Positions 49,756-64,000 of a stretch of 64,000 bases of DNA are shown here, piece by piece; position 1 is the stretch's first letter; each line of letters starts with the position of its first letter. The stretch comes from Hydrogenophaga sp. PBL-H3 (GTDB lineage Bacteria > Pseudomonadota > Gammaproteobacteria > Burkholderiales > Burkholderiaceae_C): positions 248,001 to 312,000 of the forward strand of contig NZ_CP044972.1 of the NCBI RefSeq assembly GCF_010104355.1. The letters are read 5' to 3'. Position numbers and translations under genes: made by a program. Below the pieces are notes generated by a model. That model saw only the letters and a program-made list of their open reading frames with translations, did no database searches and had not been told where the DNA came from.

Positions 49756-49769
49756 TTGAGCCAGATCAA
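49756..49769. promoter_or_regulatory. FNR/Dnr-type box upstream of narK1
   Basis: TTGAG-CCAG-ATCAA differs from TTGAT-N4-ATCAA at one base. It overlaps the perfect palindrome ATCAATTGAT (49765-49774). With the box at -41.5 the start would be near 49804, leaving about 118 bases before narK1; the TAGTTC at 49794 is a plausible -10. Confidence 0.65.
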
Positions 49770-52901: not shown

Positions 52902-55900
52902 ATGAGCCATTTCCTCGACCGCCTCTCCCACTTCTCGCTGCCGCGCGAGTCCTTCTCGGGCAACCACGGCCAGACCACCGGCGAAGACCGCACCTGGGAA
53001 GACGCCTACCGCAACCGCTGGGCGCACGACAAGGTCGTGCGCAGCACCCACGGCGTGAACTGCACCGGTTCGTGCTCGTGGAAGATCTACGTCAAGGGCG
53101 GCATCGTCACCTGGGAAACCCAGCAGACCGACTACCCGCGCACGCGCTGGGACATGCCCAACCACGAGCCGCGCGGCTGCGCGCGCGGCGCCTCCTACAG
53201 CTGGTACCTGTATTCCGCCAACCGCGTGAAGTACCCCATGGTGCGTGGCCGCCTGCTGGAGCGCTGGCGCGCCGCGCTCGCCGTGGCGAAAGACCCGGTG
53301 GCTGCCTGGGCCTCCATCGTCGAGAACCCCGAAGCCCGACGCGACTACCAGCAGGTGCGCGGCATGGGCGGCTTCGTGCGCAGCAACTGGGACGAGGTCA
53401 ACCAGCTGATTGCCGCGGCCAACGTCTACACCATCAAGCAGCACGGGCCCGACCGCATCATCGGCTTTTCGCCCATCCCGGCCATGAGCATGGTGAGCTA
53501 CGCCGCCGGCTCGCGCTACCTCTCGCTCATCGGTGGCGTGTGCATGAGCTTTTACGACTGGTACTGCGACCTGCCACCGGCCAGCCCGCAGGTCTGGGGT
53601 GAGCAGACCGACGTGCCCGAATCGGCCGACTGGTACAACAGCTCGTTCATCATTGCCTGGGGCTCCAACGTGCCGCAGACGCGCACGCCCGACGCCCACT
53701 TCTTCACCGAGGTGCGTTACAAGGGCGCCAAGACGGTGGCCGTCACACCCGACTACTCCGAGGTGGCCAAGCTCTCCGACCTCTGGCTGCACCCCGAGCA
53801 GGGCACCGACGCCGCGCTCGCCATGGCCATGGGCCACGTGGTGCTCAAGAACTTCTATTTCCCCGCAGGCGGCAAGCCAAGGTCCAGCTATTTCGACGAC
53901 TACGCGCGCCGCTACACCGACCTGCCGCTGCTCGTGATGCTGAAAGAGCACACGCTGGCCGACGGCACCAAAACCCTGGTGCCCGACCGCTACCTGCGTG
54001 CCAGCGACTTCAACGGACGGCTCGGCCAGAAGAACAACCCCGAGTGGAAGACCGTGGCCTTCGACACCGGCGGACGGGCCGTGCTGCCCAACGGCTCGAT
54101 CGGCTTTCGCTGGGGCGAGGCCGGGCGCGGCGACGAAGGCAAGTGGAACCTGGAATCCAAGGAAGCCCGCAGCGACACCGACGTGAAGCTCAAGCTCTCG
54201 GTGATCGAGGACGGCGAGCAGGACCACCAGGTGGTGGACGTGGCCTTCCCGTATTTCGGCGGCAACGCCGCGCCGCACTTCACCGCCAACGCGCAGAACG
54301 GTGCCATCAACCATGCCCGTGTGCCGGCCGTGCGCCTGCGTCTGGGCAAGGCCGGCGAGGAGCGCCATGCGATGGTGGCCACCGTGTTCGACCTGCAGGT
54401 CGCGCAGTACGGCATCGACCGTGGTCTGGGCAGTGGCGCGAAGGACTTCGACGACAATGCCGCCTACACGCCGGCCTGGCAGGAGAGCATCACCGGCGTG
54501 CCGCGCGACCAGGTCATCACCGTGGCGCAGCAGTTCGCCGACAACGCCGACAAGACGCATGGCAAGTCGATGGTGATCATCGGTGCGGCCATGAACCACT
54601 GGTACCACGCCGACATGAACTACCGCGGTGTGATCAACCTGCTGATGATGTGCGGCTGCATCGGCCAGAGCGGTGGCGGCTGGGCGCACTACGTGGGCCA
54701 GGAAAAGCTGCGCCCGCAAACGGGCTGGGTGCCGCTGGCCTTTGCCACCGACTGGGCGCGCCCGCCGCGCCAGATGAACAGCACCAGTTTCTTCTACGCG
54801 CACACCGACCAGTGGCGCTACGAGAAGCTCGGCATGGAAGAGATTGTGAGCCCCCTGGCCGACAAGGCCGCGTTTGGCGGCAGCATGATCGACTTCAACG
54901 TGCGCGCCGAGCGCATGGGCTGGCTGCCCAGCGCGCCGCAGCTCAAGACCAACCCGCTGCAGGTGGTGAAAGACGCCACCGCCGCCGGACTGGACCCCAA
55001 GGACTACGTGGTGCGTGCGCTCAAGGACGGCACGCTGCAGATGAGCTGCGAAGACCCGGATGCGCCGCAGAACTGGCCGCGCAACATGTTCGTGTGGCGC
55101 AGCAACCTGCTGGGCTCCAGCGGCAAGGGCCACGAGTATTTCTGCAAGCACCTGCTGGGCACCGAGAACGGTGTGCAGGGCAAAGACCTGGGTCGGGACG
55201 AAGCCAAACCCGAAGAGGTGGTGTGGCACGAGCACGCGCCGCAGGGCAAGCTGGACCTGCTGGTCACGCTGGACTTCCGGATGAGCACCACCTGCCTGTA
55301 TTCGGACGTGGTGCTGCCCACCGCGAGCTGGTACGAGAAGAACGACCTCAACACCAGCGACATGCACCCCTTCATCCACCCGCTGTCGGCGGCGGTGGAC
55401 CCGGTGTGGCAGAGCCGCAGCGACTGGGAGATCTACAAGGGTTTTGCGCAGGCCTTCAGCGAGGTCTGCAAGGGCCATCTCGGGGTCGAGAAAGAGGTGG
55501 TGCTCACGCCCATCATGCACGACACCCCCGGTGAACTGGCGCAGCCTTTCGACGTGAAGGAATGGAAGAAAGGCCATTGCGAACTCGTCCCCGGCAAGAC
55601 CGCGCCACAGATCGCCGTGGTGGAGCGCGACTACCCCAACACCTTCAAACGCTTCACCGCGCTGGGCCCCTTGCTCGACAAACTGGGCAACGGCGGAAAG
55701 GGCATCGGCTGGAAGACCGGCACCGAGGTGGAGCAACTTGGCCAGCTCAACGGCACCACGCTCGACGAGGGCGTGACCAAAGGCATGCCCAGGATCGTGA
55801 CCGACATCGACGCCTGCGAGGTGATCCTGCAGCTCGCGCCCGAGACCAACGGCCATGTGGCGGTGAAGGCCTGGGAAGCGCTGGGCAAGCAGACCGGGCG

Positions 55901-56720
55901 CGACCACACCCACCTGGCGCTCTACCGCGAGGACGAGAAGATCCGCTTCCGCGACATCCAGGCCCAGCCGCGCAAGATCATCAGCAGCCCGACCTGGAGC
56001 GGCATCGAGAGCGAGACGGTGAGCTACAACGCCGGCTACACCAACGTGCACGAACTGATCCCATGGCGCACCCTCACCGGTCGCCAGCAGTTCTACCAGG
56101 ACCACCCCTGGATGATTGCCTTCGGCGAAGGCCTGGGCAGCTACCGCCCGCCGGTGGACCTGAAGACCACCGAGGGCATCCACAACATCAAGCCCAACGG
56201 CAACAAAGAGATCCAGCTGAACTTCATCACGCCGCACCAGAAGTGGGGCATCCACTCGACCTACAGCGACAACCTGATGATGCTCACCCTCAACCGGGGC
56301 GGCACCGTGGTCTGGCTGAGCGAAGACGACGCCAAGAGCGCCGGCATCGTGGACAACGACTGGGTCGAGCTGTTCAACATCAACGGCGCGGTGGCCGCGC
56401 GTGCGGTGGTGAGCCAGCGTGTGAACCCGGGCATGGTGATGATGTACCACTCGCAGGAAAAGATCATCAACACCCCGGGCTCCGAGATCACCGGCGTGCG
56501 CGGCGGCATCCACAACTCGGTCACGCGCATCGTGCTCAAGCCGACCCACATGATCGGTGGCTACGCGCAGCTGAGCTACGGCTTCAACTACTACGGAACG
56601 ATCGGCACCAACCGCGACGAGTTCGTCGTGGTGCGCAAGATGGACAAGGTGGACTGGCTCGACACACCGGCCGACGACCACCTGATCCGCGCCTACCAGT
56701 CCCAGGGCGAGAACCCCTGA
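52902..56720 (+). CDS. narG: Respiratory nitrate reductase alpha subunit
   Basis: A protein of 1272 aa (E. coli 1247). The [4Fe-4S] FS0 ligands are H50, C54, C58 and C93 (THGVNCTGSCSWK and EPRGCARG). The Mo ligand Asp lies in SFYDWYCDLPPASPQ (D223). No Tat leader is cut; the short N-terminus is typical of the cytoplasmic-facing enzyme. It reduces nitrate to nitrite with the bis-MGD cofactor. GGAG stands 8 bases before ATG. The 5' end of a nar operon running to narI. Confidence 0.98.
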   Translation: MSHFLDRLSHFSLPRESFSGNHGQTTGEDRTWEDAYRNRWAHDKVVRSTHGVNCTGSCSWKIYVKGGIVTWETQQTDYPRTRWDMPNHEPRGCARGASYSWYLYSANRVKYPMVRGRLLERWRAALAVAKDPVAAWASIVENPEARRDYQQVRGMGGFVRSNWDEVNQLIAAANVYTIKQHGPDRIIGFSPIPAMSMVSYAAGSRYLSLIGGVCMSFYDWYCDLPPASPQVWGEQTDVPESADWYNSSFIIAWGSNVPQTRTPDAHFFTEVRYKGAKTVAVTPDYSEVAKLSDLWLHPEQGTDAALAMAMGHVVLKNFYFPAGGKPRSSYFDDYARRYTDLPLLVMLKEHTLADGTKTLVPDRYLRASDFNGRLGQKNNPEWKTVAFDTGGRAVLPNGSIGFRWGEAGRGDEGKWNLESKEARSDTDVKLKLSVIEDGEQDHQVVDVAFPYFGGNAAPHFTANAQNGAINHARVPAVRLRLGKAGEERHAMVATVFDLQVAQYGIDRGLGSGAKDFDDNAAYTPAWQESITGVPRDQVITVAQQFADNADKTHGKSMVIIGAAMNHWYHADMNYRGVINLLMMCGCIGQSGGGWAHYVGQEKLRPQTGWVPLAFATDWARPPRQMNSTSFFYAHTDQWRYEKLGMEEIVSPLADKAAFGGSMIDFNVRAERMGWLPSAPQLKTNPLQVVKDATAAGLDPKDYVVRALKDGTLQMSCEDPDAPQNWPRNMFVWRSNLLGSSGKGHEYFCKHLLGTENGVQGKDLGRDEAKPEEVVWHEHAPQGKLDLLVTLDFRMSTTCLYSDVVLPTASWYEKNDLNTSDMHPFIHPLSAAVDPVWQSRSDWEIYKGFAQAFSEVCKGHLGVEKEVVLTPIMHDTPGELAQPFDVKEWKKGHCELVPGKTAPQIAVVERDYPNTFKRFTALGPLLDKLGNGGKGIGWKTGTEVEQLGQLNGTTLDEGVTKGMPRIVTDIDACEVILQLAPETNGHVAVKAWEALGKQTGRDHTHLALYREDEKIRFRDIQAQPRKIISSPTWSGIESETVSYNAGYTNVHELIPWRTLTGRQQFYQDHPWMIAFGEGLGSYRPPVDLKTTEGIHNIKPNGNKEIQLNFITPHQKWGIHSTYSDNLMMLTLNRGGTVVWLSEDDAKSAGIVDNDWVELFNINGAVAARAVVSQRVNPGMVMMYHSQEKIINTPGSEITGVRGGIHNSVTRIVLKPTHMIGGYAQLSYGFNYYGTIGTNRDEFVVVRKMDKVDWLDTPADDHLIRAYQSQGENP

Positions 56721-56749
56721 ACACCTGCCGAACCGAAGGAGCCTGAATC

Positions 56750-58282
56750 ATGAAAATACGCGCACAAATCGGCATGGTGCTCAACCTGGACAAGTGCATC
56801 GGTTGCCACACCTGTTCCGTCACCTGCAAAAACGTCTGGACCAACCGCCCCGGGGTGGAATACGCCTGGTTCAACAACGTCGAGACCAAGCCCGGCATCG
56901 GCTACCCCAAAGAGTGGGAGAACCAGGAGAAGTGGCAGGGCGGCTGGACCCGCCGCGCTGACGGCTCCATCGTGCCCAAACAGGGCGGCAAGTGGCAGCT
57001 GCTGATGAAGATCTTCGCCAACCCGCACCTGCCGCAGATCGACGACTACTACGAACCCTTCACCTTCGACTACGACCACCTGCAGTCGGCGCCCGAGATG
57101 AAGCACGCGCCCACCGCGCGCCCGCGCAGCCTGATCACCGGCGCGCGCATGGAGAAGATCGAGTGGGGCCCGAACTGGGAGGAGATCCTGGGCGGCGAGT
57201 TTGCCAAGCGCAGCAAGGACGCCAACTTCAGCGGCTTCGAGGCCGCGCAAAAGGCCATGGTGGGGGAGTTCGAGAACACCTTCATGATGTACCTGCCGCG
57301 CCTTTGCGAGCACTGCCTCAACCCGGCCTGCGTGGCCTCGTGCCCCTCGGGCTCGATCTACAAGCGCGAGGAAGATGGCATCGTGCTGATCGACCAGGAC
57401 AAGTGCCGCGGCTGGCGCATGTGCGTGAGCGGCTGCCCCTACAAGAAGATCTACTACAACTGGAAGAGCGGCAAGGCCGAGAAGTGCATCTTCTGTTACC
57501 CGCGCATTGAAGCCGGGCAACCGACGGTGTGCAGCGAGACCTGCGTCGGTCGCATCCGTTACCTGGGCGTGTTGCTGTACGACGCCGACCGCATCCAGGA
57601 AGCCGCCAGCGTGCCCAACGAGATGGACCTCTACAAAGCCCAGATCGACCTCTTCCTGGACCCGCACGACCCGGCGGTGATCGCGCAGGCGCGCGCCGAC
57701 GGCATCCCCGACAACTGGCTGGAGGCCGCGCGCCACAGCCCGGTCTACAAGATGGCGGTGGACTGGAAGGTGGCGCTGCCGCTGCATCCCGAGTACCGCA
57801 CGCTGCCGATGGTCTGGTACGTGCCGCCGCTCTCGCCGATCACCGCCGCGGCCAACGCCGGGCACCTGGGCGACAACGGGGAGATTCCGGACGTGAGCCA
57901 GCTGCGCATCCCCGTGAAGTACCTCGCCAACCTGCTGACCGCCGGCGACACGATCCCCGTGGTGCGCGCGCTCGAACGCATGCTGGCCATGCGCAGCTAC
58001 CAGCGCGCCAAGCACGTGGACGGCGTGATCAACCAGGACATTCTTGACCAGGTTCAGCTCAGTGTTCGCGAGGTCGAGGACATGTACCAGACCATGGCCA
58101 TCGCCAACTACGAGGACCGTTTTGTGATCCCCACCACCCACCGCGAATACGCCGAGAACACCTTCAACATCAAAGGCGGCTGCGGCTTCAGTTTCGGCAA
58201 CGGTTGTTCGGAAGGGCAGACGGAAACCAGCCTGTTCGGCAGCGAGAAGAAGCGCACCATCCCGATCAAGGCGGGGGTCTGA
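56750..58282 (+). CDS. narH: Respiratory nitrate reductase beta subunit
   Basis: A protein of 510 aa with four Fe-S clusters. Ligand groups: CIGCHTCSVTCKNVW, CEHCLNPACVASCPSG, CRGWRMCVSGCPYKK (the Trp marks the [3Fe-4S] site) and CIFCYPRIEAGQPTVCSETC. It passes electrons from NarI to NarG. SD GGAG 9 bases before ATG. narJ follows after a single base. Confidence 0.97.
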   Translation: MKIRAQIGMVLNLDKCIGCHTCSVTCKNVWTNRPGVEYAWFNNVETKPGIGYPKEWENQEKWQGGWTRRADGSIVPKQGGKWQLLMKIFANPHLPQIDDYYEPFTFDYDHLQSAPEMKHAPTARPRSLITGARMEKIEWGPNWEEILGGEFAKRSKDANFSGFEAAQKAMVGEFENTFMMYLPRLCEHCLNPACVASCPSGSIYKREEDGIVLIDQDKCRGWRMCVSGCPYKKIYYNWKSGKAEKCIFCYPRIEAGQPTVCSETCVGRIRYLGVLLYDADRIQEAASVPNEMDLYKAQIDLFLDPHDPAVIAQARADGIPDNWLEAARHSPVYKMAVDWKVALPLHPEYRTLPMVWYVPPLSPITAAANAGHLGDNGEIPDVSQLRIPVKYLANLLTAGDTIPVVRALERMLAMRSYQRAKHVDGVINQDILDQVQLSVREVEDMYQTMAIANYEDRFVIPTTHREYAENTFNIKGGCGFSFGNGCSEGQTETSLFGSEKKRTIPIKAGV

Positions 58283-58283
58283 C

Positions 58284-58997
58284 ATGGCATTTTTCTCATC
58301 TCCCCCAAAGCCTGCCGTGCACACGCTGCGTGTGCTCGCCCACCTGTTGCGTTACCCCACCGCCGAGCTGCGTGAGCACGCCGGTGAACTGCGCGACGCG
58401 CTGCGCGCCGAGGCCGCCTTGCCGTCCACGCGGCTGGTCGAGCTTGACGCGCTGCTGGTGCACCTGAGCCAGCAGCCGGCGCTCGACGTCGAAGCCGACT
58501 ACGTCGAGCTTTTCGACCGCGGGCGCAGCACCGCGCTGCACCTGTTCGAGCATGTGCTGGGCGATTCGCGCGACCGGGGTCCGGCCATGATCGACCTGAT
58601 CCAGACCTACGAGAAGGCAGGCCTGTTCTTCGGCCCGACCGAGCTGCCCGACCACCTGAGCGTGCTGCTCGAATTCGCCTCCACCCAGCCCGCCACGGTG
58701 GCGCGCGAGTTCCTCGGCGAGAGCGCGCACATCGTGCGGGTGATCTTCAGCGCGCTGCTCAAGCGCCAGAGCCCCTACGCCAGCGTGCTGGCCGCCGTGC
58801 TCGAACTCGCGGGCGAGAAAGCCGAGCCGGTGCCGGTGGCCGCCGACCCCGGCATCGACGAGAGCTGGGCCGAACCTGCCGTGTTCGGCGGCTGCTCCAC
58901 CGAAGGCCAGGCCCGGCCCGGCCAGCCACAACCCATCCGCATCGTGAAGGCGGCCACCGGCCGCCACCCCTCCCCCCCACCAGGAGCACAGGCATGA
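58284..58997 (+). CDS. narJ: Nitrate reductase assembly chaperone
   Basis: A protein of 237 aa of the TorD/DmsD/NarJ helical family; motifs VLAHLLRYPTAELREH, HLFEHVLGDSRDRGPAM and FFGPTELPDHLSVLLEF. It holds NarG until Mo cofactor and FS0 are in place. The tail (190-237) is Pro/Ala-rich. It overlaps narI in ATGA. Confidence 0.95.
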   Translation: MAFFSSPPKPAVHTLRVLAHLLRYPTAELREHAGELRDALRAEAALPSTRLVELDALLVHLSQQPALDVEADYVELFDRGRSTALHLFEHVLGDSRDRGPAMIDLIQTYEKAGLFFGPTELPDHLSVLLEFASTQPATVAREFLGESAHIVRVIFSALLKRQSPYASVLAAVLELAGEKAEPVPVAADPGIDESWAEPAVFGGCSTEGQARPGQPQPIRIVKAATGRHPSPPPGAQA

Positions 58998-59725
58998 CCT
59001 CACTGCACCACTTCCTCTTCGGCGTCTATCCCTACATCTGCCTGGCGGTCTTCCTCATGGGCAGCCTGGCCCGCTTCGACCGCGACCAGTACACCTGGAA
59101 AAGCGATTCCTCGCAGCTGCTGCGCAAGGGCCAGCTGCGCTGGGGCAGCAACCTGTTCCACCTCGGCATCCTGTTCCTGTTCTTCGGTCACGCCGTGGGA
59201 CTGCTCACGCCGCACTACTTCTACGAAGGCTTCATGAGCGCCGCGGCCAAGCAGCGCATGGCCATCTACGCGGGTGGCATCGCCGGCGTGGTCTGCTTCG
59301 TGGGCCTCTCGCTGCTGCTGCACCGTCGCATCTTCGACCCACGCATCCGCCTCACCAGCCACCGCACCGACCTCGCCATCCTCGTCATCCTGTGGGTGCA
59401 GCTCACGCTGGGTCTGATCACGCTGCCGTACTCGTATTCGCACGCCGACGGCAGCGCCATGCTGGTGCTGGCCGAGTGGGCGCAGCGCATCGTCACCTTC
59501 CGCCCCGATGCGGCTGCGCTGGTCAACATGGACTGGCCGTACAAGGTGCACCTGGTGCTGGGCATGACGATCTTCCTGCTGTTCCCGTTCTCGCGCCTGG
59601 TGCATGTGTGGAGCGGCTTCGCCAGCGTGGCCTACCTCGTGCGGCCCTACCAGGTGGTGCGCAGCCGCCGCCTGGGTGTGCCGGCCAACCCGACGAATCC
59701 GGCCCACCCGAACCAGCCCCGCTGA
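58994..59725 (+). CDS. narI: Respiratory nitrate reductase gamma subunit (cytochrome b)
   Basis: A protein of 243 aa with five membrane helices. Heme b histidines lie in LFHLGILFLFFGHAVGLL and in the last helices (VHLVLGMTIFLLFPFSRLVHVWSG). It takes electrons from quinol on the periplasmic side and anchors NarGH. Conserved RPYQVVRSRR near the end. It overlaps narJ, so the four genes are fully coupled. Confidence 0.96.
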   Translation: MTSLHHFLFGVYPYICLAVFLMGSLARFDRDQYTWKSDSSQLLRKGQLRWGSNLFHLGILFLFFGHAVGLLTPHYFYEGFMSAAAKQRMAIYAGGIAGVVCFVGLSLLLHRRIFDPRIRLTSHRTDLAILVILWVQLTLGLITLPYSYSHADGSAMLVLAEWAQRIVTFRPDAAALVNMDWPYKVHLVLGMTIFLLFPFSRLVHVWSGFASVAYLVRPYQVVRSRRLGVPANPTNPAHPNQPR

Positions 59726-59749: not shown

Positions 59750-60604
59750 ATGAGCCATGACCTTTCCACATCCTCGGGCTGCGGCAGCAGCGCCTGCGCC
59801 TGCAAAGGCCCCGAGGCCGCTGCGACGGCTCCGGCAGCGATCGCCTGCGTCAACGGCATTGCCCTGCACGAAGCCGGTGAGACGCTGGATGCGCAGACCC
59901 TGCGCGAGCGCGCCTGCACCGAGCTGTTGCGCCAGCAGGCGGTGCGCAACGGCCTGCTGCCGCGCTTCACCGGCTTGAATGCGCCCGATCCCGATGAAGC
60001 CACGCGCCGCGCGATCGAAGCCCTGCTTGAAGCCGAGGTGCACTCGCCCGAGCCGGGCACCGAGGAATGCCGGCGCCACTACGAGGCGCACAAGCCGCGC
60101 TTCGTGGTCGGCCAGGCGCTGCACGTGCGGCACATCCTGTTTGCGGTCACGCCGGGCGTGCCGGTGAACGCGCTGGCCCAGCGCGCCGAAGCCGCGTTGC
60201 TGGAGCTCTCGCGCCAGGGCGTGGCAGCCGATCGTTTCGCGCAGCTCGCGGCCGAACTCTCCAACTGCCCTTCGAGCGCCCAGGGTGGCGACCTCGGCTG
60301 GATCACGCCGCAGGACTGCGCGCCCGAACTGGCCAAGGCGCTCTTCTTGCAGAACGACGCCATCCAGGCCGTGGGTCTGCACCCGCGTCTGGTGCACAGC
60401 CGCTTCGGCCTGCACATCGTCGAGGTGCTGGCGCGCGAGCCTGGGCGCCTGCCCGACTTCACCGAGCTGCGGGCGCAGATCGGTGCGCGCCTGGCCCTGC
60501 AGTCGCAGGCCACGGCGCTGCGCCAGTACATGCAGCTGCTGGTGGGCCAGGCCCTGGTGGAGGGCGTGGAGCTGGAGGGGGCCGACACGCCTCTCGTTCA
60601 ATGA
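59750..60604 (+). CDS. Parvulin-type peptidyl-prolyl isomerase (PpiC/NifM-like)
   Basis: A protein of 284 aa. A Cys-rich N-terminus (C11, C16, C18 in GCGSSACACKG) and a helical region precede the rotamase domain (about 120-225): ALHVRHILFAVTPGVPV, FAQLAAELSNCPSSAQGGDLGWI and LVHSRFGLHIVEVL. No signal peptide, so cytoplasmic. Parvulins of this type are often linked to narI or to nitrogenase and help fold a metalloenzyme. It overlaps the carbonic anhydrase gene in ATGA. Confidence 0.9.
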   Translation: MSHDLSTSSGCGSSACACKGPEAAATAPAAIACVNGIALHEAGETLDAQTLRERACTELLRQQAVRNGLLPRFTGLNAPDPDEATRRAIEALLEAEVHSPEPGTEECRRHYEAHKPRFVVGQALHVRHILFAVTPGVPVNALAQRAEAALLELSRQGVAADRFAQLAAELSNCPSSAQGGDLGWITPQDCAPELAKALFLQNDAIQAVGLHPRLVHSRFGLHIVEVLAREPGRLPDFTELRAQIGARLALQSQATALRQYMQLLVGQALVEGVELEGADTPLVQ

Positions 60605-61302
60605 GCGCTCCTGCCGGGAGCGCAACAGCAGCGGACGAGCTGCTGTTGCGCCTGCGGCATTTCCGATCCGACTACTTCCCGCGCCACCAGCAGCGCTTTC
60701 AGGACCTGGTGGCCGAGGGCCAGCACCCCAAGACGCTGTTCATCGGCTGCTCGGACTCGCGCCTCGTGCCCTACCTGCTCACCGGCGCGGGCCCAGGGGA
60801 GTTGTTCATTGTGCGCAATGTCGGCGCCCTCGTCCCTCCCCACGATCAATCGCACGGCCTGCACGGAACGATGGCCGCGATCGAGTTCGCCGTGCTGAGC
60901 CTGCACGTGGAACGCATCGTCGTCTGCGGCCACAGCCACTGCGGCGCGATCCGCACCGCCTACGAAGGCGCGCCCGCCGAGGCCGTGGCACTCACCGCGT
61001 GGCTCAAGCTGATCGACGAGGCCCTGCTGCCCGTGCAGCCCTGCGCCGAGTCGATGCGCCGCACCGAGCAGCGCGCCGTGGTGCTGCAGCTCGAACGCCT
61101 CATGGGCTACCCCATGGTGCGGCGCGAGGTCGAGGCTGGCCGGCTCACCCTGCACGGCTGGCACTACGTCATCGAAGACGGAGAAGTGCATGTGTTTGAT
61201 GCACAGCAAGGTGATTTCATCGCGGCCTCGGTAGCCTCCAACAGCGGCACCGGGCCGTACCAACCTTATGTGGAACACGATGGACAAGTCATCAGTTACT
61301 GA
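60601..61302 (+). CDS. Beta-class carbonic anhydrase
   Basis: A protein of 233 aa. Zinc ligands in IGCSDSRLVP (Cys, Asp) and GHSHCGAI (His, Cys). It interconverts CO2 and bicarbonate. Its ATG overlaps the parvulin stop, and its end overlaps the next gene by 23 bases, so all three are coupled. Why a carbonic anhydrase is built into a nar operon is not obvious; it may supply bicarbonate or manage pH during denitrification. Confidence 0.94.
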   Translation: MSAPAGSATAADELLLRLRHFRSDYFPRHQQRFQDLVAEGQHPKTLFIGCSDSRLVPYLLTGAGPGELFIVRNVGALVPPHDQSHGLHGTMAAIEFAVLSLHVERIVVCGHSHCGAIRTAYEGAPAEAVALTAWLKLIDEALLPVQPCAESMRRTEQRAVVLQLERLMGYPMVRREVEAGRLTLHGWHYVIEDGEVHVFDAQQGDFIAASVASNSGTGPYQPYVEHDGQVISY

Positions 61303-62509
61303 AGCGCCCGCAGCGCTGGCGGCCGAACTCCAGGCCCTGGCCCGACAGGGCGGTCTGCGCACCTGGCGCCTGCGCGGCCGCGAGCTGCTGCCGGTGGTGC
61401 AGGGCGGCATGGGCGTGGGTGTGTCGGCGGCCTCGCTGGCGGGCACCGTGGCGGGCCTGGGCGGCGTGGGCACGGTCTCGTCGGTCGACCTGCGCCGTCG
61501 CCACCCCGACCTGATGGCCGCCACCGCCCACCTGGACAAGGAGCCCGACGCGCGCGAGCGCATCGACGCGGCCAACCTGGTGGCGCTCGATCGCGAGATC
61601 CGCGGCGCGAAGGCTCTCGCGCAGGGCCAGGGTCTGGTCGCGGTCAACGTGATGAAGGCGCTCAGCGCCTACGAGCGGTACGTGCGCCAGGCGCTGCAGA
61701 GCGGCGCCGACGCGGTGGTGGTGGGCGCGGGCCTGCCGCTGGATTTGCCCGAGCTGGCGCGCGAGCACCCCGACACCGCGCTCATCCCCATCCTGTCTGA
61801 CGCGCGCGGCGTGCAGCTGCTGGTGCGCAAGTGGGAGAAAAAGGGTCGCCTGCCCGACGCCATCGTGATCGAGCACCCCCGGCTGGCCGGCGGCCACCTC
61901 GGTGCGGCCAAGGTGGCCGACCTGCAGGACACCCGCTTTGATTTCGAGGTCGTGATCCCGCAGGTGCTCGACTTCTTCAAGACCGCCGGCATCGAGCGCG
62001 AAATTCCGCTCATCGCCGCCGGCGGCGTCAGTTGCCGCGACGACATCCTGCGCCTGCAGGCCCTGGGTGCCAGCGCGGTGCAGCTCGGCACGGCCTTCGC
62101 CGTCACGCGCGAATGCGACGCCGACCCGGCCTTCAAGCGCGTGCTGGCCGAGGCCCGACCTGAGGACCTGGTGGAGTTCGTCAGCGTGGCCGGCCTGCCC
62201 GCGCGCGCCGTGCGCACTCCCTGGCTGGACAAATACCTGCGCCTGGAGCCGCGACTGAAGGCGGTTGCGCATGTGAAGAAAAAGTGCAACATGGCGTTCG
62301 ACTGCCTGGCCCATTGCGGCCTGCGCGAAGGCAAGGGCGAGATGGGGCAGTTCTGCATCGACCAGCAGCTCGGTCACGCGCTCGACGGCGACGCGCAGAA
62401 GGGCCTGTTTTTCCGGGGTGCGGGTGTGCTGCCGTTTGGCCAGCAGATCCGCCCGGTGCAGGACCTCATGCGCTGGCTGCTGGGCGGTGTCCATCCTGCG
62501 TCGGCTTAA
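61280..62509 (+). CDS. Nitronate monooxygenase-like flavoprotein
   Basis: A protein of 409 aa, start ATG 61280 (MDKSSVTEAPAAL); ATG 61268 is possible. TIM-barrel NMO/2-nitropropane dioxygenase fold: VVQGGMGVGVSAASLAG, ADAVVVGAGLPLDLP, IAAGGVSCRDDILRLQALGASAVQLGTAFA. Unusual C-terminal cysteines: C336, C342, C346 and C359 (KCNMAFDCLAHCGLR and FCIDQQL), a CX5CX3CX12C pattern that suggests a metal or Fe-S site. Part of the nar run; substrate uncertain. Confidence 0.88.
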   Translation: MDKSSVTEAPAALAAELQALARQGGLRTWRLRGRELLPVVQGGMGVGVSAASLAGTVAGLGGVGTVSSVDLRRRHPDLMAATAHLDKEPDARERIDAANLVALDREIRGAKALAQGQGLVAVNVMKALSAYERYVRQALQSGADAVVVGAGLPLDLPELAREHPDTALIPILSDARGVQLLVRKWEKKGRLPDAIVIEHPRLAGGHLGAAKVADLQDTRFDFEVVIPQVLDFFKTAGIEREIPLIAAGGVSCRDDILRLQALGASAVQLGTAFAVTRECDADPAFKRVLAEARPEDLVEFVSVAGLPARAVRTPWLDKYLRLEPRLKAVAHVKKKCNMAFDCLAHCGLREGKGEMGQFCIDQQLGHALDGDAQKGLFFRGAGVLPFGQQIRPVQDLMRWLLGGVHPASA

Positions 62510-62526
62510 TGAAAGAACATCCGACC

Positions 62527-64000
62527 ATGAAACGCGACGCATTGAAATCCGCCAGCACCATCGGCCAGCAACCCATCACCCTGGACGTGCTGAAGGAGAA
62601 ATACCTCAAGGACGGTGAGACCAGCGAGCAGGACATCTACCGCCGCGTGGCGCGCGCCCTGGCCTCGGTGGAAGCCGAGGCCGACCGCGCGCTGTGGGAA
62701 CAGCGCTTCTTCGACAACCTGCAGGCCGGCGCCATCGGGGCCGGTCGCATCATGAGCGCGGCCGGCACCACCATCCAGGCCACGCTGATCAACTGCTTCG
62801 TGCAGCCCGTGGGCGACTGCATCCAGGGCGTGGACGACGGCGGTTACCCCGGCATCTACGAAGCCCTGCGCGAGGCGGCTGAGACCATGCGGCGCGGCGG
62901 CGGTGTGGGCTACGACTTCTCGCGCATCCGCCCGCGCGGCGCCGAGGTCAAGGCCACCGCCTCGCTGGCCTCGGGTCCGTGCAGCTACATCAATGTGTTC
63001 GACCAGTCGTGCGCCACGGTGGAGAGCGCGGGCGCGCGGCGCGGTGCGCAGATGGGCGTGCTGCGCATCGACCACCCCGACGTGCTCGAGTTCATCACCG
63101 CCAAGCGAACGCCGGGGCGCTGGAACAACTTCAACGTGTCGGTGGGCGTGAGCGACGCCTTCATGCGCGCCCTGGCCGACGGCCAGCCCTGGGAACTGGT
63201 GCACCGCGCCCGCCCCGGCGCGGCCCTGATGGCCCAGGGCGCCCACCAGCGCGCCGACGGTCTGTGGGTCTACCGCAGCCAGCCCGCGCGCGAACTGTGG
63301 GACACGGTGATGCGCTCCACCTACGACTTCGCCGAACCCGGCATCCTGTTCCTCGACCACATCCAGCAGGACAACAACCTGCGCTACTGCGAGTCGATCG
63401 AGGCGACCAACCCCTGTGTGACGGCCGACACCCGGCTGGCGACACAACACGGGCTGGTGCGGATCGGTGACCTCTACAACAGCGGACTGCTCCTGGAGAC
63501 CACGGTGGACCGCCGGGCTCTGGGCGGCGAGGGGCGTGGTGTCGACATCCGTTCCGCCAAGCCCGCGTTCATGACCGCCCGCCTGACCGATGTGTTCCAG
63601 GTCACCACCGAAGACGGCCATGAGATCAAGGCCACGGCCTGGCACGAGTTCTACACGTCGCGCGGCAAGATCAGGCTGTCGGACTTGAAGGTAGGCGACG
63701 AGTTGTGGGTGCAGTCCGGCAAGGGCCAGTTTGGTCAACAAGGCAGCGAGGAGCTGGGCATGCTGCTCGGCCTGATCACGGGCGATGGCCATTTCACCCA
63801 CCGAGGGAAAGGGCGGGAGGTGGTGTGCATCAACCTCTGGAACCAGGAGCGTGAACTCGCGGAGCGGGTGACCACCACGGTCAACGCCATGATCGCCGGC
63901 CTGTCGCGAACACAGCGGACCTATTGCGTCGCGCCGGTGGCGGTGGTCGAGCGCAACCACGTCTTCATTCGCTCCGTGCTGCTGGCGCGTGCCCTGGAAG
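62527..64000 (+). CDS. nrdJ: Adenosylcobalamin-dependent (class II) ribonucleotide reductase, intein-split, 3' end cut by window
   Basis: Open from ATG 62527 to the window end (491 codons). NrdJ features: NCFVQPVGDCIQGVDDGG, MRRGGGVGYDFSRIRPRG, SCATVESAGARRGAQMGVLR and GRWNNFNVSVGVSDAFM. At residue 297 the conserved N-P-C (radical cysteine, as in NPCGEQPLP) is reached, and an intein begins. It makes deoxyribonucleotides without oxygen. It follows the NMO gene by 17 bases in the nar run, which fits anaerobic growth. Confidence 0.93.
   Translation, partial: MKRDALKSASTIGQQPITLDVLKEKYLKDGETSEQDIYRRVARALASVEAEADRALWEQRFFDNLQAGAIGAGRIMSAAGTTIQATLINCFVQPVGDCIQGVDDGGYPGIYEALREAAETMRRGGGVGYDFSRIRPRGAEVKATASLASGPCSYINVFDQSCATVESAGARRGAQMGVLRIDHPDVLEFITAKRTPGRWNNFNVSVGVSDAFMRALADGQPWELVHRARPGAALMAQGAHQRADGLWVYRSQPARELWDTVMRSTYDFAEPGILFLDHIQQDNNLRYCESIEATNPCVTADTRLATQHGLVRIGDLYNSGLLLETTVDRRALGGEGRGVDIRSAKPAFMTARLTDVFQVTTEDGHEIKATAWHEFYTSRGKIRLSDLKVGDELWVQSGKGQFGQQGSEELGMLLGLITGDGHFTHRGKGREVVCINLWNQERELAERVTTTVNAMIAGLSRTQRTYCVAPVAVVERNHVFIRSVLLARALE
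63415..64000 (+). mobile_element. Intein with LAGLIDADG homing endonuclease in nrdJ (N-terminal part)
   Basis: It starts at C1 (codon 63415) in NPC|VTADTRLATQHGLVRIGDL, the block A pattern CxxxDTxxxT. Block B has T74-x-x-H77 (IKATAWHEFYTS); block N4 is LSDLKVGDELWV. The first LAGLIDADG helix is LGMLLGLITGDGHF (Asp at intein residue 124). At least 195 residues are in the window; the second helix, the C-terminal HN and C+1 are outside. Confidence 0.9.

Follow-up and report, generated by a model that had tools for sequence, protein, structure and literature searches.

Previously described inteins and the locus examined

Inteins are known from ribonucleotide reductase (RNR) genes, and the nrdJa intein of Azotobacter chroococcum NCIMB 8003 covers residues 321-690 (370 residues) and carries a LAGLIDADG_3 domain (PMC4465626). 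The parts of that report available to us state that this intein may also occur in Rhodanobacter fulvus and a few beta- and gammaproteobacteria; the same parts mention neither a C-terminal Gln, nor lost histidines, nor the radical Cys. Inteins of class 1 start with Cys or Ser and end in a residue that can cyclize, mostly Asn and more rarely Gln or Asp, before a Cys, Ser, or Thr of the host. Gln is described, in the consulted sections, as a known alternative in this role: two Pol II inteins splice more slowly with Gln than with Asn and are sped up by a change to Asn, but in the RNR intein of Chilo iridescent virus the native Gln allows splicing and is the better residue (PMC4031507). According to the available text, this viral intein and the Pol II inteins of P. 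abyssi and P. horikoshii use the C-terminal Gln for step 3 of splicing (PMC4031507, PMC8175363).

Here, we describe an intein in nrdJ of Hydrogenophaga sp. PBL-H3 (4.8 Mb genome in three contigs), which is a further member of this known kind of mobile element. The gene begins near the right end of the 64,000-nucleotide stretch that was analyzed (hereafter the window). It is very probable that this is a full-length, mobile LAGLIDADG intein of the class 1 type, placed directly before the codon of the NrdJ thiyl-radical Cys, spliced via Gln374, and behaving as a selfish element. Like the A. chroococcum intein, it has a class II NrdJ host and a LAGLIDADG_3 domain, and the published description of that intein suggests that the two apparently share both site and family. 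R. fulvus is one of the loci in our set (L020). Homologs also sit at the matching NrdE cysteine (SNL|C, at the radical Cys) in SPbeta bnrdE, a Staphylococcus phage, Brochothrix phage A9, and a Miltoncostaea plasmid. These align over the full length (31-39% identity) and share the penultimate Gly; unlike our intein, they have a class I-type host, a Gly-Asn end, and the block-F His.

Host gene and intein anatomy

The features of nrdJ within the window are as follows.

62509..63414, + strand: N-extein (residues 1-302) of NrdJ, the class II, AdoCbl-dependent RNR; NrdJ_Z match above the cut-off
63415..64000, + strand: first 195 of the 374 intein residues; the intein ends at window-equivalent position 64536 (L002:1416-2537)
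63415..63417, + strand: intein Cys1, the block A nucleophile (CVTADT); Cys in 81/81 aligned rows
63634..63645, + strand: block B TxxH, read as T74-A-W-H77; Thr74 and His77 in 81/81 rows
63754..63789, + strand: first LAGLIDADG helix (block C), LGMLLGLITGDG; Asp124 codon at 63784-63786, Asp124 in 79/81 rows

The nrdJ start codon at 62509 overlaps the stop codon of the upstream gene (TTAATG), and the frame reads EATNP|CVTADTRL at 63400-63438. The earlier note had recognized that an intein of the LAGLIDADG type interrupts a class II RNR at its NPC motif, and had named in advance what should lie to the right of the window. This held up: the extension (L002) completes a precursor of 1183 residues with no stop, blocks A, B, F, and G can all be read, and the second LAGLIDADG helix is YLRALFQTDG, with Asp230 (Asp in 79/81 rows). 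The intein corresponds to precursor residues 303-676, in open frame throughout; its block F/G, VFDTTQADHNTVIFNGLVTGQ, lies directly before Cys+1, and after intein residue 374 the host resumes with CGEQPLP (C-extein, CGEQPLPPYGCC). A final His-Asn had also been expected, but the real end is Gly-Gln.

Profile matches agree with this reading. The intein exceeds the cut-off of the Pfam profile LAGLIDADG_3 with an E value of 2.1e-24 and that of the NCBIfam profile intein_Nterm with an E value of 2e-10, and Pfam Intein_splicing reaches 31.2 bits, below its cut-off of 35.8. The features of a class 1 HINT intein are found together: Cys1 in block A, the TxxH, a cyclizable C-terminal residue followed by Cys, a predicted HINT fold, and a precise in-frame insertion, the last of these seen from an intact empty allele at the identical codon in relatives. 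Both LAGLIDADG helices carry the acidic catalytic residue of such endonucleases. The G+C content of the intein is 63.5% vs. 69.8% for the host gene (82% vs. 92-93% at third positions).

The fold was judged on a 90%-identical relative (L003), predicted with 10 host residues on each side from a 44-row alignment (mean pLDDT 91.5, pTM 0.91). Searches of this model with Foldseek and VIA-align 2 ranked whole inteins with LAGLIDADG endonucleases at the top, including TliVMA (7qsu; Z 27.5, rmsd 4.3, 312 aligned) and PI-PfuI (1dq3; Z 26.0, rmsd 5.0, 332 aligned). PI-PfuI, a Pyrococcus furiosus intein whose host we take to be an RNR, is also the closest solved chain by profile (E 6e-9), yet shares only 16% identity over the 332 aligned residues. 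Thus, our intein is predicted to have the HINT plus LAGLIDADG fold.

The two cysteines at the junctions need to be told apart. Aligned by way of L089, an uninterrupted NrdJ of the same genus, the first C-extein residue (Cys+1) falls on C322 (TNPCGE) of Thermotoga maritima NrdJ (1xje), which we take to be the thiyl-radical cysteine; this agrees with the class II assignment. The earlier note was right to place the insertion at the NPC motif, but by this alignment the Cys that it took for the radical site, at 63415, reads as intein Cys1, and the radical Cys is Cys+1, outside the window. The sulfur that attacks in splicing step 2 would therefore later become the catalytic radical center. As the radical Cys is parted from NP by 374 residues in the precursor, unspliced NrdJ is very unlikely to be active. 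Annotators should note that, in precursors of this kind, the cysteine adjoining NP is not the radical one.

The Gly-Gln junction

From a set of 80 loci, six were excluded from the alignment: five partial ones (L069, L074, L075, L076, L082) and one with a broken frame (L077). Among these, L069 ends in TGN, L076 and L077 end in TGQ, and no intein end was found in L074, L075, and L082. Frames are open in 74 of the 75 loci that match both intein ends, L077 being the broken one. Two pairs of identical inteins (L003 and L085; L005 and L086) are doubled in the 81 alignment rows and in the 76 identity comparisons below and counted singly in the 79 inteins used for end states; L030 and L031, identical inteins of two strains, are both counted.

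Our intein ends with Gly373-Gln374 before Cys+1, and the commonest form, His-Asn, is missing. This is the rule in its family: among the 79 cellular inteins (own included), the C-terminal residue is Gln in 73 and Asn in 6, and the residue at position 373 is Gly in 80/81 rows. The block-F position that is His in SPbeta-type and His-Asn inteins is Asn in 80/81 rows; the six Asn-ended rows keep this Asn, and a single Gln-ended row has His there. The adjoining residue is His in 51/81 rows, our intein among them, so this neighbor could still help cyclization. The Gln-ended Pol II inteins of P. abyssi and P. horikoshii differ in having both the penultimate and the block-F His, as described in the available part of the source (PMC8175363).

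Phage, plasmid, and viral relatives show how the block-F residue goes with the end residue. In the first set, all five Asn-ended rows have the block-F His, and the single Gln-ended viral row has Asn. In a set of 27 viral loci (from 28, with L164, of which only the first part is present, left out; two were already counted in the first set), block F is Asn in 5/5 Gln-ended loci and His in 20/22 or Ser in 2/22 Asn-ended ones, and Gly precedes the last residue in 27/27. On the intein tree, four changes between Asn and Gln are needed to account for the end states, and the six Asn-ended inteins, which are from Methylococcales, branch from within Gln-ended ones; this count depends on "quick" trees with long branches (L135, L078, L134, L132, L080, L131, and others in the intein tree; L071 and others in the second).

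Five Gln-ended relatives, two cellular (L186, L187) and three viral (L160-L162), are shortened to 246-290 residues in the endonuclease region. The first LAGLIDADG helix reads as missing or degraded in these, with a GD retained nearby in L162 and the second-helix Asp retained in L187, and Cys1, the TxxH, and the GQ|C end are kept in 5/5. Decay of the endonuclease with retention of the junction suggests that Gln-ended splicing works.

Altogether, there is good support for a mobile intein of ordinary type at a strongly conserved catalytic position; its C-terminal center is atypical but shared across the family. In the passages of freely accessible papers covered by our searches, we found no description of the Gly-Gln end of this nrdJ intein family. 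A Gly-Gln center without either helper histidine is the feature of interest here: the family offers a natural series for how an intein may cyclize Gln without the two histidines known to help, and its natural short versions would be easy to express.

Distribution and horizontal movement

Searches of 67 genomes of the genus gave intein-query matches in 17; in 50, the match to the host gene starts at the first C-extein residue of the nrdJ type described here. The insertion site was read in 37 of these 50, and the remaining 13 gave no intein-query match. At the insertion codon, 20 of the 37 are empty, 7 carry the Gln-ended intein, and 10 carry a His-Asn intein of 380 or 352 residues. The latter resembles our intein in its identical insertion codon, CVTADT start, and LAGLIDADG domain; it differs in sequence (33-36% identity) and in having a VHN|C end and the block-F His. 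The genus thereby offers a series for asking how an empty allele and two inteins of divergent sequence compete for a single codon. In a family-wide survey, 34/250 genomes match, five of them with pieces at 46-100% identity and the others at 23-37%; outside the genus, only two (G289 and G228) read as Gln-ended. Gln-ended copies were also found in virus-like contigs. Carriage on plasmids was considered and rejected, as 3/72,556 plasmid records match, none with at least 60% identity.

Intein and host trees of 75 loci conflict strongly. By the AU test, neither alignment is compatible with the tree of the other (p 3e-58 for the intein alignment on the host tree, p 7e-46 for the reverse), and 27/72 splits are common to both trees, which indicates that the intein has moved horizontally between hosts. 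The intein is more similar to ours than the host is in 58/76 comparisons (two duplicates included), e.g., 69% vs. 44% identity in Methylotuvimicrobium L006; Polaromonas L021 has the reverse pattern (67% vs. 86%). Purifying selection acts on the endonuclease part, with dN/dS 0.06-0.10 across seven pairs of Gln-ended inteins that have genomes in common. In all seven close pairs, intein dS exceeds host dS (e.g., 0.42 vs. 0.22 and 0.37), and no co-conversion tract stands out in 40-codon bins, so that nothing here points to recent homing into the source genome; a recent arrival there was set aside as unsupported.

The nar neighborhood and other RNR genes

Genes and sites upstream of nrdJ are as follows.

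49756..49769, + strand: predicted FNR/ANR-like box TTGAGCCAGATCAA, which differs from TTGAT-N4-ATCAA at one position and precedes the first NarK-like gene
52902..59725, + strand: narG, narH, narJ, and narI, all four above NCBIfam cut-offs
59750..62509, + strand: three genes that separate narI from nrdJ, namely peptidyl-prolyl-isomerase-like (with NifM as best model), carbonate-dehydratase-like, and FabK/nitronate-monooxygenase-like

The three intervening genes match below curated cut-offs, so their names are only likely; the NarK-like matches are also below cut-off. The FabK/nitronate-monooxygenase-like gene (61268-62509) overlaps the nrdJ start, and a homolog lies upstream of nrdJ in 10/20 genomes sampled. 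FNR-like boxes with up to two mismatches are scattered across the window (22 vs. 5.2 expected); therefore, the box before the NarK-like genes is merely suggestive. Between 58000 and 64000, scans gave no promoter-like sites and two terminator-like sites vs. 2.2 expected.

The earlier note had singled out the position of the intein in a nar operon. The nar genes are indeed there, but the linkage is found without the intein as well. Of the 20 genomes sampled, 15 carry narH, narJ, and narI upstream of nrdJ, and 13 carry narG there as well; one of the five genomes missing this linkage (L167) offered only 5.9 kb of upstream contig. By state, the linkage holds for 2/3 genomes with the Gln-ended intein, 3/5 with the His-Asn intein, and 10/12 with an empty site. 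As it is the same with and without the intein, the linkage belongs to nrdJ, and a link between intein and nar genes was rejected.

The source genome (G000) encodes a second, uninterrupted NrdJ (EATNPCGEQVLP), which falls in another subfamily (its C-extein match is 56% identical) and lies on the 319-kb contig C2 (L130:5000-7993). The genome also has a class I large-subunit match adjoining NrdB. No class III NrdD match was found in the source genome by a search that gives matches in 6/14 control genomes. Given the second NrdJ, the intein-bearing nrdJ is not the sole oxygen-independent RNR gene in this genome. In another genome (G015), the RNR matches found were one of class I and a single NrdJ, which carries the intein; this NrdJ may be the only oxygen-independent RNR there.

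Proposed splicing and alternative explanations

In the mechanism that we propose, Cys1 would form the N-terminal thioester, and the host radical Cys (Cys+1) would take over the N-extein. Gln374 would then cyclize to a glutarimide, releasing the intein, and an S-to-N shift would restore ...EATNPCGEQ... and an active NrdJ. The endonuclease would cut empty alleles and spread the intein to them, and by spreading in this way the intein would behave like a selfish element in a position intolerant of imprecise loss. What this explanation has to face is the C-terminal center, where the penultimate His is absent from block G and Asn replaces the block-F His, as well as the slower splicing with Gln in the two Pol II inteins and the dS pattern described above.

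These same replacements, together with the presence of a second NrdJ that could cover for the loss, would also fit a reading in which Gln and the missing histidines block step 3 and the intein is defective, leaving nrdJ broken. We consider this very unlikely. The host exteins are under purifying selection (dN/dS 0.06-0.16 vs. L084 and L085), the Gln end is common to nearly the whole cellular family, almost all frames matching both ends are open, and, in the consulted part of the report, the Chilo iridescent virus intein splices with the same native residue (PMC4031507).

Alternatively, splicing could be gated, e.g., by a Cys1-Cys+1 disulfide under oxygen, so that NrdJ would become active only when the cell is reducing and anoxic. 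Both catalytic cysteines are present, with Cys1 invariant in the alignment, nrdJ adjoins nar genes, and the source genome has no NrdD match; the available part of one source describes a Cys1-Cys+1 disulfide together with a C-terminal Gln in the P. abyssi Pol II intein (PMC8175363). Even so, this reading is unlikely: the intein is missing from more than half of the genus genomes read, nar linkage is independent of it, a second NrdJ of the source genome is uninterrupted, other members of the genus hold a divergent His-Asn intein at the identical site, and the trees indicate horizontal movement. The broader claim of the earlier note, in which an anaerobic dNTP source is under the control of the intein, is likewise disfavored by the second NrdJ, the class I genes, and the empty sites. 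A further version, which we regard as quite improbable, is that the Gly-Gln end and block-F Asn are a separate, conserved solution to cyclization, kept because a slow thiol-dependent reaction makes a redox gate. If so, a disulfide between Cys1 and the radical Cys would form under oxygen and splicing would proceed only once the cell is anoxic, and one sulfur would act as the sensor and as the nucleophile in splicing before it carries the catalytic radical. We retain the mobile, Gln374-spliced intein as the preferred explanation.

Additional intein-like inserts

Several loci carry further inserts in NrdJ. Near host residue 131, an intein-like insert runs from KAG|CVA... to ...IHN|CGIGYEF in L011, L012, L017, L038, L053, and L063, and L015 has a gap pattern like that of loci with a further insert. 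L067 has one near host residue 474, from PTG|CVV... to ...SHN|T. In Brochothrix phage A9 (L135), which has a very long branch in the intein tree, the annotation splits the RNR genes flanking the intein into several pieces. The virus-like contig L132 (2769-7442) encodes an NrdJ interrupted twice by intein-like inserts; the insert at the NPC site ends in TGN, and the other, after a GGGG motif, ends in IHN.
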